Assembly: GCA_029552745.1 (NCBI GenBank)
Contig: JAKPDK010000182.1
Location: 1-64,000, forward strand
Source of the DNA: Candidatus Hydrogenedentota bacterium
GTDB lineage: Bacteria > Hydrogenedentota > Hydrogenedentia > Hydrogenedentales > SLHB01
Reading direction: 5' to 3'
Length of the DNA stretch: 64,000 bases
Part shown: positions 1 through 35,916 of the stretch, one piece after another
Layout of the letters: every line of letters begins with the position of its first letter
How positions within the stretch are numbered: position 1 is the stretch's first letter
The notes under the pieces: model-generated
Database searches by the model: none
Told to the model about the DNA's origin: nothing
The model's input: only the letters and a program-made list of their open reading frames with translations
Translations under genes and position numbers: made by a program

Positions 1-1353
1 CACCTGGAGGGCGTTGTGTTCTACGCGGGCGTGTGTCACCAGGTCGAACTTGCCATCCTCCGAATCAAACTCATGCCGAATACGACAAGTTTCACCGGAG
101 GATTCGTCGATAACCCGAACCGATTGAAATTCGTCATTTAACGATTTTCCCAAAGCGCGGAGTACGAATCCCGTGAAGCCGATTTCTTTATCTTCATTTC
201 GGAAAGCGATATACGCGTTTAGCGCGCCGCGGGTACCTGTCTGCCACAGGACATCGTATTGAGCGTTTTCGATAGATACCTTTCCAAGCATTCGCGCGGA
301 AGCGGGAGGTTGTGCGGTGTGCCGTTCGGGGTTGCCGGTAATTAGAGTGGGTTCAGCCCAGAAACAGCCGTCGCACGTGGTATCGTTTGCGGGACCCGGA
401 TGGGCTTCGAACTGGAGGCGAATGTCTTTTCCCGCAAAGGCGCTCAGATCCGCGGATGCGTCTTCCCATGCTTTTGTTTGGGTATGTTTTTCGAACACAA
501 TTTCACCGAGCTGGGCATCAGGCGCATCCCAGGGTGCGACTCGAATGCGAAAGGTGACGCCGTCACTCGCGGGTTCCCCTCGTTCTGATTGATGATCGCG
601 TATCGCGTTGGCAAATTGGAGACGCAGCGGCGTTTGAAGGGGCAGGTGTAGGGGGAACTCCAGAATTACGGCGCCGCAATACCCACTGTACCATGCGGGA
701 TGCATGGTGATTGCGCGGCGTTCTGTGCCTCGGACGACGGGTTCGTCCAGGTGGGCGACAGCGCGACTGATGTCGTGAGTGCCTTGCCAGCCTATCGGCA
801 TGAGGGTGTCTACGCGGTCTTGGTTGCAGATCAACACCCGAAACGTCCGAAGATTTTGAAGAGTTATGGAGGTGTTTTCGGGGATGGAGTACGGGCGCCA
901 AGGGCGTTGAGGTTCCTTCATCTTTTCAGTCGGAAAACCACTCGTTTCAAAGATGAGAATCGGGTGGAGGACCTTTTTTTCTCCATTAAGTTGAAATTCA
1001 ATATAGCCATGCAGGGGATAGTGGGCGTTGTAACATGTTGCGGGCGCCATCACCGTGAACGGTGCGTTCGTTTCGGCATTGGGTTCGACCTGAAACGTCA
1101 CCGTATCGCCGGGCTCTATTTGCCAACCATCAATGCCCATTAAACGCATTGTGCCCGAGACGATCTCCGACCCAGCATTCTTAACTCGCACCATGGCTTG
1201 AAAAGGTATGTTTGACGGCTCCACTTTGTTGGGTCCCTCAATGGAGGCATGAAGAGGAGGTACGTCATCTTCTGGCGCGTCGAACGCTGGTGCTGGAAGC
1301 GGCGCAACAAGAAAAGACAATGTTGTTACTACCAGTAGGATGGACTTGCCCAT
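1..1353 (-). CDS. Secreted hypothetical protein, C-terminus cut by window edge
   Basis: An open frame runs on the minus strand from an ATG at 1353 to the left edge without a stop, so about 451 codons of the N-terminal part are visible. A GAGGAG ribosome site sits just upstream of the ATG. Residues 1-20 (MGKSILLVVTTLSFLVAPLP) look like a signal peptide, so the protein is probably exported. Residues about 30-110 read as an immunoglobulin-like/CARDB-type beta-sandwich (alternating strands, 'VRVKNAGSEIVSG', 'VEPNAETNAPFTV'). The following part has further beta-rich stretches resembling galactose-binding modules, with no catalytic motif that I recognise. It is divergently oriented to the pectate-lyase-like gene at 1477, so a shared intergenic promoter region is possible. 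A carbohydrate-related role is inferred from context only. Confidence 0.75.
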   Translation of the reverse strand, partial: MGKSILLVVTTLSFLVAPLPAPAFDAPEDDVPPLHASIEGPNKVEPSNIPFQAMVRVKNAGSEIVSGTMRLMGIDGWQIEPGDTVTFQVEPNAETNAPFTVMAPATCYNAHYPLHGYIEFQLNGEKKVLHPILIFETSGFPTEKMKEPQRPWRPYSIPENTSITLQNLRTFRVLICNQDRVDTLMPIGWQGTHDISRAVAHLDEPVVRGTERRAITMHPAWYSGYCGAVILEFPLHLPLQTPLRLQFANAIRDHQSERGEPASDGVTFRIRVAPWDAPDAQLGEIVFEKHTQTKAWEDASADLSAFAGKDIRLQFEAHPGPANDTTCDGCFWAEPTLITGNPERHTAQPPASARMLGKVSIENAQYDVLWQTGTRGALNAYIAFRNEDKEIGFTGFVLRALGKSLNDEFQSVRVIDESSGETCRIRHEFDSEDGKFDLVTHARVEHNALQV

Positions 1354-31983: not shown

Positions 31984-33552
31984 ATGAAGACACGTCTCCT
32001 GGGCTTGCTGTACGTTGGGGCGATTTTGCTGTGTGTTTGTCTGTCGGCTTCCAGTGCGGGGGATTTCCGCTGGGTGGAAGTGGATGTCTCGTTGCGGCCG
32101 GACTATAAGGCGACGGTGACGTACAGCGTATGCTTGTGTTCTCTCGGAAACTTGCATGGTTTTTATTTTGAAGGTGTAGAAGAAGAACCAATTTTCGATA
32201 CTTCCTCCGCGGTTGCATGGTACAACAACAATCGTTCCAGCGTGCCGTTAGAGATCAAGCGCGTTGACTCGAAGACGTGGGACATTGTGTTGGCGGGAGG
32301 ACGGGCAATCGATTCGGGGGATGTGATTTACAAGTTTACGTATGCCGCGGACTTGGGCGCGTCGGGACATTTGGGGGTGACTCAATCTGAATTTGGTCCG
32401 CTGGTGTATTTTGACTGGGCGCCGGTTCAGTGGGACTCGCCTTTGGAACATTATACAGTGCGCGTCTATTACCCCATCGAATGCCAAGCGGGGGAAATGA
32501 CTATTGCAGACATGGATGCTTTTGGGTTTCGTACCGAACGTTTCATGAACGATCAGTGCCTGATTTCGTATTACGGCCAGGAACAGAACGGGAAGAACTG
32601 GCTTGCGGTGCGTTTGCATCGGGACACCGTTCCGCAAAGGTATCATTTCCGTATACAACAATACATCGACGCGAAATACTTTCAGCCGAGAGAAGTCTCA
32701 CGGGGGATCGGTGGGGCATTATCGCAGATGACTTCGACTCGTTTGTCTTACGTTCCCATTCTTCTCTTTGGGTTTATCGTTATTTTCTTACTCTTTTTCA
32801 TTGTCTTGACGAAACACCGGTCTTTGATCAAGGCGCGAGACGGGCTGGATGAGATTCAGTGGGCTCGGAATGACTGGATCCCGCCGCGCATTGAGGTTTC
32901 GTCTTTTCGTAAAGAAGGCAAAATTGCTGAGTTGGACATTTATGAGGCATGTATTCTTTGTGAGGTTCCTTTTGGGGACGTCTTGAGTGCGATTGTGACA
33001 AGGCTGGAGTCTCTCGGCGCGATTGAAGTAGTTTCTAAGAACCCGTTTCGTTCTCGCGCCTTGCAAGCACATCCGAACTTGCCGAACGAGTATGAGCAAG
33101 CGTTTTTTCAATTTGTCGAGGGAGACGGGGAATTAAGCGAATCGGAAATGGCGGAGATTTTTCGCACCCTCTGTGATAATTTGCAGCGGAAGGCATGGGA
33201 CAGCGACCTGGACGCCACCCGGGCGCATTATCAGGAAATGGTGGATCAGTTGTTTTCGCCAACGCTGGAGCAGCAGGAGGAGGTTGGCGAGCGGCGGGTG
33301 GAACCTGTGGTCGTTTTGGGACACAGTTGGCACCGTTACCCCTATTATTATCGCACTTCTTTCAGCAGTGATTTACATCGGATGACGTACTCCAGTTTCT
33401 TACAATCCAACTATTGTTTCCAGGGGTGTTTCACGCATTCTGCGTGTCACGATGCATGTCATTCTGCGTGTCATTCGGCTTGTCACAGCGCGTGTCATTC
33501 GGCTTGTCACTCTGCCTGTCACAGTGCCTGTGTCAGCGGGGGTTCCCATTGA
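31984..33552 (+). CDS. DUF2207-like membrane protein with C-terminal (Cys-His-Ser-Ala)n tail; candidate radical SAM substrate
   Basis: The 522-residue protein has a signal peptide (1-24), an extracytoplasmic beta-rich DUF2207-like domain (about 28-245), one membrane helix (about 255-277) and a cytoplasmic part (278-522). The cytoplasmic part ends in a Cys-rich tail: Cys478, Cys482, then Cys488, 492, 496, 500, 504, 508, 512 and 516 at exact four-residue spacing, as eight tetrads His-Ser/Asp-Ala-Cys, closing with VSGGSH. The His, Ser and Ala codons vary between repeats, so the pattern is kept at protein level. The predicted topology puts the tail in the cytoplasm, where the radical SAM/SPASM enzyme encoded 8 bases downstream could reach it. 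The ATG at 31984 is preferred over GTG at 31975. The DUF2207 assignment is by pattern. A metal-binding tail is the main alternative. Confidence 0.87.
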   Translation: MKTRLLGLLYVGAILLCVCLSASSAGDFRWVEVDVSLRPDYKATVTYSVCLCSLGNLHGFYFEGVEEEPIFDTSSAVAWYNNNRSSVPLEIKRVDSKTWDIVLAGGRAIDSGDVIYKFTYAADLGASGHLGVTQSEFGPLVYFDWAPVQWDSPLEHYTVRVYYPIECQAGEMTIADMDAFGFRTERFMNDQCLISYYGQEQNGKNWLAVRLHRDTVPQRYHFRIQQYIDAKYFQPREVSRGIGGALSQMTSTRLSYVPILLFGFIVIFLLFFIVLTKHRSLIKARDGLDEIQWARNDWIPPRIEVSSFRKEGKIAELDIYEACILCEVPFGDVLSAIVTRLESLGAIEVVSKNPFRSRALQAHPNLPNEYEQAFFQFVEGDGELSESEMAEIFRTLCDNLQRKAWDSDLDATRAHYQEMVDQLFSPTLEQQEEVGERRVEPVVVLGHSWHRYPYYYRTSFSSDLHRMTYSSFLQSNYCFQGCFTHSACHDACHSACHSACHSACHSACHSACHSACVSGGSH

Positions 33553-33560
33553 GGCGTGGT

Positions 33561-34937
33561 ATGAAATCGGGCAAGAACGGAGAATTGCCTTTGAAACGAG
33601 ATGAGCGCTATCCGCTTGAATGGATAGATGATTATGTCAAGTCAATTCGGCCGTTTGTCCATGTTCGGCGGCGGGATAACTTATTGATCAAGATACCCAA
33701 CGAGGCGTTCAAATTAAACGAAAGCGGTGTGCAGATTTTGTTGCGGCTTTTTTCAGGCGAACCGATCATGACCTTGTGGCGTTCCTTCGGGGGTGATGAG
33801 GTTGTTCAGCGGGATCTGTATCACTTCTTTATTGCCTTGAAACAGGCGCTTCAGGGATGTCTTAACGAACAGGCACCACCGCAGGGGGCCGTGATACAGC
33901 CATTTACGCTGGGGTTCAGTGCACTCCCCATTCTAAGTGAAGTCGCGCTTACGTACCGGTGCAACTTGCGGTGCCGTTTTTGCTACGCCGGGTGTGGGAA
34001 AGGCAGCGCGAGTGCTTTGCCGGAGATGAGTACCGATGAGGTGAAACGGGTGTTACGTTGTATTCGCGAGGACGCCGATGTGCCGAGCGTTAGTTTCACG
34101 GGCGGTGAGCCGACGCTTCGTGACGATCTCGAGCATCTTGTTACGTTTGCGCGGCGCGAGTTACAGATGCATGTGAATCTGATCACGAATGGGACGCGGA
34201 TTGACGCCCAGCGGGCAGTGGCGCTTGCGGAAGCGGGATTGAACAGTGCGCAAGTGAGTCTTGAAGCCCCGTGCGAGGAAGTGCATGACCGTTTGACGGG
34301 TGTGCCCGGTTCGTTTCTACGAGCGCTGGAATGTATCCGCTGTTTGCAGGAGGTTGGTATTCGGGTTCATACCAATACGACGCTCACCCGAGCCAACCTG
34401 GAGCATGCCTCGGCAATGCCAGCGTTTGTCCATTCCCTGGGCTTATCGCGGTTTTCGATGAATTTGATGATTCCTGCGGGTGTGGATAGACAGGACATTG
34501 CGCTTTTAAGTTTGCGGTACAGGGAGATCGGGGAACACGTGCTACGTATCAAAAAGGCGGCAGAACAGGAGCGCGTGGAGTTCATGTGGTACTCGCCGAC
34601 GCCGGTCTGCCTATTTAATCCGGTGGCGTACCGATTGGGTAATAAAGGCTGTGCTGCGTGTGACGGCTTGTTGTCGGTTTCGCCAACGGGGGGTGTATTG
34701 CCCTGTTCCAGCTGGCACGAACCCGTGGGCAATCTATTGGAAGAACCGTTTGAGGAGGTATGGCAGTCTGCGCGGGCTTGCATGATCCGTTCCAAAAGGG
34801 AGGCGCCGCGGGTTTGTCGTACGTGTGATGATTTTGCGGTATGTCAGGGTGCGTGTCCTTTGTATTGGCACGAGTTTGGTTGTGAGGAATTGGTAGGGCT
34901 GCAGGAGGGGCTTTGTCATGCTGTTGCCGGCACCTGA
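33561..34937 (+). CDS. Radical SAM/SPASM enzyme with N-terminal PqqD-like recognition region
   Basis: The 458-residue enzyme has three parts. Residues about 35-100 ('LLIKIPNEAFKLNESGVQIL') resemble PqqD, the RiPP recognition element. The radical SAM core has CNLRCRFC (Cys134, 138, 141) and 'SFTGGEPTL'. The SPASM-type C-terminus has Cys364, 367, 382, 419, 422, 428, 432 and probably 441 or 452 as auxiliary-cluster ligands. SPASM enzymes with a fused recognition domain typically modify ribosomal peptides, often making thioether or carbon-carbon cross-links. The ATG at 33561 has GAGG six bases upstream and lies 8 bases after the stop of the Cys-tail gene; an upstream extension to 33414 is only a shadow of that repeat. 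It overlaps the next gene by 20 bases. Confidence 0.92.
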   Translation: MKSGKNGELPLKRDERYPLEWIDDYVKSIRPFVHVRRRDNLLIKIPNEAFKLNESGVQILLRLFSGEPIMTLWRSFGGDEVVQRDLYHFFIALKQALQGCLNEQAPPQGAVIQPFTLGFSALPILSEVALTYRCNLRCRFCYAGCGKGSASALPEMSTDEVKRVLRCIREDADVPSVSFTGGEPTLRDDLEHLVTFARRELQMHVNLITNGTRIDAQRAVALAEAGLNSAQVSLEAPCEEVHDRLTGVPGSFLRALECIRCLQEVGIRVHTNTTLTRANLEHASAMPAFVHSLGLSRFSMNLMIPAGVDRQDIALLSLRYREIGEHVLRIKKAAEQERVEFMWYSPTPVCLFNPVAYRLGNKGCAACDGLLSVSPTGGVLPCSSWHEPVGNLLEEPFEEVWQSARACMIRSKREAPRVCRTCDDFAVCQGACPLYWHEFGCEELVGLQEGLCHAVAGT

Positions 34938-35916
34938 ACGACGTGGAGAACTGCATTTTTATGTGGCAAAAAGCCTGCCGTATGCCTTGCGTTTGGGCAT
35001 CGCCTTTTTTCTGATTACCGCCGGTTGGGGGGTGCAGTATTTCTTTTTAGAGCGAGGTCCGTGGTGGATTGGTTTGTTGGGAGTGGCTTTGGGGGTTGCG
35101 CTCTTGTTGGTTCGTGGGTTTGACAATACGGTGCCTCGGCGGGCGCCGTCGGAGGAGTGGAAACCGGTGCGCCGAAGCGAGGTGGAACGGATCATCGAAC
35201 TTAACGTGAAACAACGGAAATGGGACCAAGCGGCTATCGATATAACAAATGCGCGGGGCTTTTTTTCGCTGGTGCTGTTGACGATTCTGCTTGCGGTGAT
35301 AGGCTATTTTCTTTTGAAGAACATCATGCCAAGTATCCGGGATCGGCATCTTCATATTGTGGGGGCAAATCTTGCGGTGATGTTGTTGCCATTTTGGTTG
35401 ACAGGGATTCGGTTCACCCTGAAAAACGACCGCTTGATCGTGAAAGCCAAGATGCTCTTGAGGCTGGAGGATGTGTTCAACAGCTTGCTGCATCAGCCGG
35501 GCGAGGTTTTTCAATACCAGATGGTCACCGCCCCCGTGAAAAAAGGGCAAGGGGAAGTGCCTGCTGATATCAAGGCGATTGTGCAATTTCAAGAGGGTCC
35601 TTCGGAATTTTTGGGCATTCAAATGCAAATCGCCATCAACAGTGTACAGGGTTCCGATTATCCCTACTTTTATTGTGTGTTGGTGGCAAGGGCGGCTTTT
35701 GGGCGAATCACGGCGAAGCAGCTTCCGCCGCCACAGAAGAATGTCGTCTTGGAACCTTCCCAAGATGGAGACGTTGTGATTATGGTAATTCGCCAGAAAA
35801 CAACCAAGAATTCCGGATATCATACGAATCAAAAAGTGGCGCAGGCGATTTTCAACTATTCACTTCGTGCGGCACGGCAATTAATTAGTTCTTCCCCTGT
35901 GGCGGACAAGAAGTGA
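34918..35916 (+). CDS. Four-helix membrane protein of the Cys-tail/radical SAM operon
   Basis: I do not recognise a family. The 332-residue protein has two hydrophobic hairpins: helices at about 20-43 and 48-66, then about 114-134 and 147-166. After that comes a 160-residue soluble region of mixed alpha/beta ('RFTLKNDRLIVKAKMLLRLEDV', 'IKAIVQFQEGPSEFLGIQMQI'). It has no catalytic motif or Cys cluster. The start overlaps the radical SAM gene by 20 bases and has GGAGG upstream, so the two are translationally coupled. A role as a membrane partner, transporter-like factor or anchor for the modified protein is an inference from operon position only. Confidence 0.82.
   Translation: MLLPAPERRGELHFYVAKSLPYALRLGIAFFLITAGWGVQYFFLERGPWWIGLLGVALGVALLLVRGFDNTVPRRAPSEEWKPVRRSEVERIIELNVKQRKWDQAAIDITNARGFFSLVLLTILLAVIGYFLLKNIMPSIRDRHLHIVGANLAVMLLPFWLTGIRFTLKNDRLIVKAKMLLRLEDVFNSLLHQPGEVFQYQMVTAPVKKGQGEVPADIKAIVQFQEGPSEFLGIQMQIAINSVQGSDYPYFYCVLVARAAFGRITAKQLPPPQKNVVLEPSQDGDVVIMVIRQKTTKNSGYHTNQKVAQAIFNYSLRAARQLISSSPVADKK

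Follow-up and report, generated by a model that had tools for sequence, protein, structure and literature searches.

The tightly packed genes for a membrane protein, a radical SAM/SPASM enzyme, and a further membrane protein (gene 3), all on the forward strand of the window (the whole stretch of 64,000 nucleotides analyzed here), probably constitute one cassette, in which an RRE-guided, RiPP-like maturase would modify the C-terminal Cys-repeat tail of the first protein in place, on the cytoplasmic side of the membrane. It is very likely that the tail is the substrate of the enzyme, judging from conservation, genetic co-occurrence, and domain make-up. A sequence-only reading of the same DNA had already proposed the tail as substrate, and the co-occurrence with the enzyme, together with the recognition domain and the RiPP-maturase fold of the latter, supported that proposal. 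The positions of the features are listed in Table 1. The ATG of the enzyme gene at 33561 lies 8 bases past the stop codon of the membrane protein gene, and gene 3 overlaps the enzyme gene by 20 bases. Genes read as gyrB and gyrA are located 5' of the cassette, and a GH116-type glycosidase gene lies 3' of it in convergent orientation.

Table 1. Positions of the cassette features in the window and of the sister cassettes in their own loci.
Feature	Position	Strand	Remark
DUF2207-like membrane protein, 522 aa	31984..33552	+	ATG 31984, stop 33550-33552
Membrane protein, N-terminal parts: signal peptide; beta-sandwich ectodomain, residues 26-235; one TM, residues ~257-275			
Membrane protein, parts after the TM: cytoplasmic domain (winged-helix-like and helical), then a disordered linker and the Cys-repeat tail			
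C-terminal tail, residues 478-522, CFQGCFTHSACHDAC(HSAC)6VSGGSH	33415..33549	+	Proposed enzyme substrate
C(HxAC)7 core, eight Cys (C488-C516) spaced exactly four residues apart	33445..33531	+	Universal tail core
Radical SAM/SPASM enzyme, 458 aa, N-terminal RRE	33561..34937	+	Pfam, fold model
RRE (PqqD-like), beta3-alpha3, residues 18-94 of the modelled sequence	33621..33851	+	
Radical SAM core, CNLRCRFC (CX3CX2C)	33948..34385	+	Three Cys invariant in 27/27
SPASM domain	34650..34829	+	Cys invariant in 27/27 except C364, which is at least 90% conserved
Gene 3, 332 aa, integral membrane protein, two hydrophobic hairpins and conserved C-terminal soluble domain	34918..35916	+	
Sister cassettes	L082 4725-8076; L083 6965-10270; L084 5234-8471; L085 3444-7125		

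The membrane proteins and the constraint on the tail

The label "DUF2207-like" given to the membrane protein by the sequence-only reading was upheld through its relatives: of 25 family members, 15 matched the N-terminal DUF2207 domain (PF09972) of Pfam with E<=1, the best of them at 1e-8, and the window protein itself gave no such match. Most members have an N-terminal signal-like segment and a single strong transmembrane segment near residues 257-300, as judged by hydropathy. Hydropathy and charge analysis of family members further revealed a net positive charge directly after the transmembrane segment, suggesting that the C-terminus is inside and the tail on the cytoplasmic side. In this topology, which was predicted from hydropathy only, the tail would face the same compartment as the enzyme, in agreement with the cytoplasmic location predicted earlier. 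In a fold search, approximately 225 residues of the membrane protein matched M1 aminopeptidases (ERAP1-like; ERAP1 and LTA4H), and matches to chains of human oligosaccharyltransferase/translocon complexes were also obtained; no function was assigned from either. Both sets of matches are probably accounted for by positions 32059-32688 of the window, the region of the beta-sandwich ectodomain.

Gene 3 had been described as a coupled four-helix membrane gene, which fits its overlap with the enzyme gene and the three to four hydrophobic segments, in two groups, found by hydropathy. Its product belongs to no Pfam or NCBIfam family. At one Fischerbacteria locus (L051, 10976-12902) gene 3 is duplicated in tandem.

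The tail contains ten Cys, at residues 478, 482, 488, 492, 496, 500, 504, 508, 512, and 516, of which the last eight are spaced exactly four residues apart, as had been claimed. Relatives were recruited with two ectodomain peptides, LHGFYFEG and WDIVLAG, and not with the tail or the enzyme. A peptide scan of approximately 85,000 species genomes yielded 46 loci, three of which (L075, L078, and L081) lacked the tail, being partial matches without the C-terminus, and were left out. C(HxAC)nVSxxH formed the C-terminal end in all 43 loci that keep the C-terminus, as it does in the window. The repeat number n was 7 in 23 sequences (window included), 8 in 19, 2 in one, and 3 in one (L079); the latter, with three HxAC units only, may be real or an assembly effect. 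H, A, and C were invariant in the units and x was variable (S 221, D 64, G 32, and N 1), and the first unit was HDAC in 43 of 44 sequences (the 43 loci and the window).

The mean pairwise identity in a 25-sequence alignment was 88.5% for the tail, against 44.5% for the ectodomain, 37.9% for the cytoplasmic domain, and 22.6% for the linker before the tail. Ser codons were mixed (TCN and AGY). Most arrays contained five to eight distinct DNA units, and in the window six different DNA sequences encode the seven HxAC units. The inter-locus identity of the tail and the mixed codons ruled out a chance array or a recent DNA repeat, and the mixed codons suggested that selection acts on the peptide and not on a young DNA repeat. 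The model gave the tail pLDDT values of 33-44, a very low confidence of the kind that a segment would show if it were disordered or modified, and the tail is probably disordered. Strong constraint is thus found on a segment that is modelled at low confidence.

Distribution of the cassette and its sister

By record title, about 10 phyla are represented among the 43 loci, with titles naming Hydrogenedentota, Kiritimatiellae, Lentisphaerae, Verrucomicrobia, Omnitrophota, Elusimicrobia, Armatimonadota, Fischerbacteria, Gemmatimonadales, Desulfobacteria, Spirochaetes, and Gammaproteobacteria. The named records are all metagenome assemblies, and some of the titles are clearly unreliable; L041, titled "Nitrospiraceae", shares its tail with a contig of G010, a genome of the window's family. 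The enzyme gene was located immediately 3' of the membrane protein gene in 43/43 loci, and gene 3 followed the enzyme gene in 41 of the 43 under a strict score threshold. Among 68 genomes of the phylum, the enzyme was detected (E<1e-160) in six, with patchy presence across genera, and the DNA pattern for HxACHxACHxAC in exactly the same six; the tail never occurred without the enzyme, and none of the other 62 genomes carried the pair. The chance of such a coincidence would be about 1 in 109 million if the genomes were independent, but they are related and the counts are non-independent. The search for further genomes with a Cys-repeat tail beside a SPASM gene, suggested by the sequence-only reading, thus led to 43 loci in about 10 phyla, and a lack of co-occurrence of tail and enzyme, named there beforehand as a refutation, was not seen in the loci or in the genomes.

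The pairwise distances of the three cassette proteins correlated at 0.89-0.92. The enzyme tree broadly followed the phyla; some of its groups were mixed (for example, Desulfobacteria, Gammaproteobacteria, and Gemmatimonadales), and it is compatible with some horizontal transfer. One 1015-aa ORF (L073, 310-3354) had the appearance of a natural fusion of membrane protein and enzyme; reading in all three frames revealed a frameshift and showed that a short tail, ACHSACHSACVSGRSH, is encoded in a different frame, and the ORF is probably the result of a deletion or an assembly error, not a fusion. In Elusimicrobia-type loci (L046, L048, L050, L054-L058, L060-L065, L077, and L079), gene 3 is followed by genes similar to those for a NifU-type Fe-S scaffold and a cysteine desulfurase, and an ACT-domain-like gene lies divergently 5' of the cassette. 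The NifU/NifS adjacency was not taken as a functional link, being confined to these loci, and may be inherited gene order.

A sister cassette was detected in four genomes of the window's family. In it, a homologous enzyme gene precedes the gene for a homologous membrane protein whose C-terminal end reads CACACAGCACACACAGGGR; one CA unit is missing from one of the four tails. The sister enzymes share 35-37% identity with that of the window and scored 264-290 bits against the family profile, and the sister membrane proteins scored 49-61 bits, in the cytoplasmic domain. The sister tail pattern, membrane protein, and enzyme occurred in exactly the same 4 of the 68 genomes, and in none of the other 64. 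The sister tail contains no His at all; only Ala and Cys recur, with some Gly. No match to gene 3 was found in the sister cassettes; instead, a gene located 5' of the sister cassette encodes a small membrane protein that is zinc-ribbon-like and contains the CxxC motif twice (L083, 6681-7076). A homologous enzyme thus accompanies a different Cys repeat, so that tail type and enzyme type change together, as would be expected of a substrate and its maturase.

The enzyme and the chemistry proposed for the tail

The sequence-only reading had placed a radical SAM/SPASM gene with a PqqD-like N-terminal region directly downstream of the membrane protein gene; the coordinates and the Pfam matches of the window enzyme (Radical_SAM, 2.8e-28; SPASM, 6.6e-10) agreed with this placement. 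All 27 aligned members matched both families, and nine of the 27 also matched PqqD (PF05402; best 8.8e-5). An AlphaFold2 model (pLDDT 87.5, pTM 0.89), whose sequence begins at base 33570, showed a beta-beta-beta-alpha-alpha-alpha element at residues 18-94 (pLDDT mostly >90), followed by the barrel and the SPASM domain, so that the PqqD-like region proved to be real by both profile and fold. The RRE region alone gave only noise when compared with PDB sequences; the PqqD profile and the fold decided the assignment. The best structural matches in the PDB, both over the whole chain, were SuiB bound to its precursor SuiA (E 2e-17), with an alignment covering almost the whole enzyme, and SkfB, which was also the best PDB sequence match. 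The enzyme therefore carries the CX3CX2C core, the SPASM Cys pattern, and the N-terminal PqqD-like element of RRE-containing radical SAM/SPASM peptide maturases, and its resemblance to a peptide (RiPP) maturase is supported by the recognition domain and the RiPP-maturase fold.

Enzyme and tail would also be adjacent and co-inherited if they shared a pathway and the one did not modify the other. We considered it improbable that the tail serves, unmodified, as a Cys/His arm for binding metal or Fe-S, akin to metallothionein, with the enzyme acting on another target, such as gene 3 or a small molecule of the pathway. Soft metals would be bound by a strictly alternating series of eight Cys and no fewer than eight His, the unit His is invariant, which thioether chemistry alone does not demand, and genes resembling the NifU-type scaffold and cysteine desulfurase lie downstream in Elusimicrobia. 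However, such neighbors are restricted to the Elusimicrobia-type loci, none of the 68 genomes has the tail but not the enzyme, the enzyme has a peptide-recognition domain and a RiPP-maturase fold, and the sister cassette retains the enzyme even though its tail has no His.

If the tail is the substrate, as we favor, the predicted topology would place the beta-sandwich of the inserted membrane protein on the outer side of the membrane and leave the C-terminus in the cytoplasm. The RRE would then dock a part of the cytoplasmic segment, and a SAM-derived radical, together with the SPASM clusters, would modify the CHxA repeats one after another. The most likely products would be in-line Cys thioether cross-links within or between neighboring units; we hold this assignment tentatively, at slightly under an even chance. 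As H, A, and C are invariant while x is free, x is suggested not to be the acceptor, and the invariant Ala or His would be the likelier one. SPASM enzymes that act on Cys-containing peptides often form thioethers, as reported for PapB (PMC9413430) and sactisynthases (PMC8172795), and SkfB, the closest PDB sequence, is of this kind. Against a thioether, x varies (S, D, G, and N) and offers no obvious acceptor set, and the tail has neither the CX3D/E motif of PapA nor the opposing half of hairpin sactipeptides. The enzyme might instead modify the tail by another chemistry, such as Cys-His or C-C cross-links, epimerization, or Cys oxidation or decarboxylation, a possibility of lesser but real weight to which the invariance of H, A, and C against a variable x and the sister tail with only Ala and Cys recurring, and some Gly, both lend some support. 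SuiB, the nearest fold, forms a C-C bond.

The modified tail would stay attached and form a rigid Cys/His element of altered chemistry at the cytoplasmic face of the membrane. A role of this element in metal or redox binding, or in sensing coupled to the ectodomain, is speculative; gene 3 would be a membrane partner. Modification on the intact protein appears likely. Maturation as a classical RiPP, in which the tail is modified, cut off, and exported and the membrane protein serves as a very long leader, would account for a distinct C-terminal module placed after a variable linker, like a core peptide after its leader. It is nevertheless improbable: no peptidase or peptide exporter was recognized among the genes recurring beside the cassette, which argues against release of the tail, and the recurrent neighbors are confined to Elusimicrobia-type loci. 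Moreover, a diffusible peptide under ecological selection should vary, whereas the tail is nearly invariant across about 10 phyla, and the ectodomain and the cytoplasmic domain are conserved as functional folds.

Relation to known systems and significance

Cys-repeat targets of radical SAM enzymes are already represented in NCBIfam, by TIGR04117 and TIGR04340, and Cys tails have a precedent in the MNIO/TIGR04222 proteins; none of these families was matched at its curated cut-off. TIGR04117 (Syntroph_Cxxx, a Cys-Xaa-Xaa-Xaa repeat radical SAM target), with its maturase TIGR04119 (CXXX_matur), likewise has a four-residue Cys register, but it is a 98-position model, whereas the repeat described here is fused to a membrane protein of approximately 520 aa. 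Weak TIGR04117 matches were obtained in 17 of 25 members, confined to the repeat in the members shown singly, and the best reached 23.5 bits against a cut-off of 50; over the phylum genomes the profile gave no match anywhere, controls included, so that this search carries no weight. TIGR04119 was not detected in the genome of the window, even with a threshold of E<=10. The system of TIGR04340 (rSAM_ACGX) also employs a radical SAM/SPASM enzyme and has, by its name, a four-residue repeat with Ala before Cys. It differs in that no Gly follows Cys in the present tail, and the window enzyme scored 81.7 bits against a cut-off of 400.

TIGR04222 membrane proteins bear a C-terminal, Cys-containing, low-complexity tail, the putative substrate of an adjacent MNIO (DUF692) maturase, and these tails are predicted to be periplasmic (PMC12452194). 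The likeness lies in a membrane protein with a C-terminal Cys tail and a maturase gene next to it. The maturase of the present cassette is, however, a radical SAM/SPASM enzyme and not an MNIO, the tail is predicted to be cytoplasmic and not periplasmic, and its repeat is strict and nearly invariant, in contrast to variable, Ser/Gly-rich tails. In 12 of 25 members TIGR04222 weakly matched a stretch within the cytoplasmic domain (best E 5e-6); the scores shown singly, 11.1 bits for the window protein and 23.3 bits for L048, lie below the cut-off of 43 bits. MNIO (PF05114) was absent from five of the six tail-bearing genomes (G000, G010, G012, G041, and G043). The sixth, G008, carries two MNIO genes (C143:8837-9619 and C6:50950-51732), on contigs other than that of the cassette.

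The enzyme agrees with SuiB and SkfB in domain order and in fold; the known substrates of SkfB, SuiB, and PapB are, however, small free precursor peptides, whereas the proposed substrate here is the tail of an integral membrane protein. PapB joins Cys to Asp or Glu acceptors in a CX3D/E motif (PMC9413430), and such acceptors are absent from most tail units: the units read CHxAC with x mostly S, and D, where present, stands at Cys+2 and not at Cys+4. Among the papers searched, none named the combination of a membrane-protein Cys-repeat tail with a radical SAM/SPASM enzyme. What sets the cassette apart would be RiPP-type radical SAM chemistry directed at the tail of a membrane protein.

RiPP-type radical SAM enzymes are known for small secreted peptides. 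The present tail is near-identical from Hydrogenedentota to Elusimicrobia and Gammaproteobacteria, while the remaining protein shares 30-45% identity, and this difference points to a chemical structure that is fixed and has a role in the cell. The cassette offers a compact, testable two-gene pair of substrate and enzyme, and would widen the RiPP logic to the in-place maturation of membrane proteins, in parallel to the TIGR04222/MNIO proposal. It is conceivable, though we put it forward with reserve, that in a class of membrane proteins the radical SAM enzyme turns an invariant cytoplasmic Cys-His repeat into a prosthetic element, cross-linked and permanently attached, which would work as a metal or redox device built into the protein. 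RiPP chemistry would in that case belong to the machinery of the cell across many phyla, and the repeats would be of two or more types, among them (CHxA)n and (CA)n.
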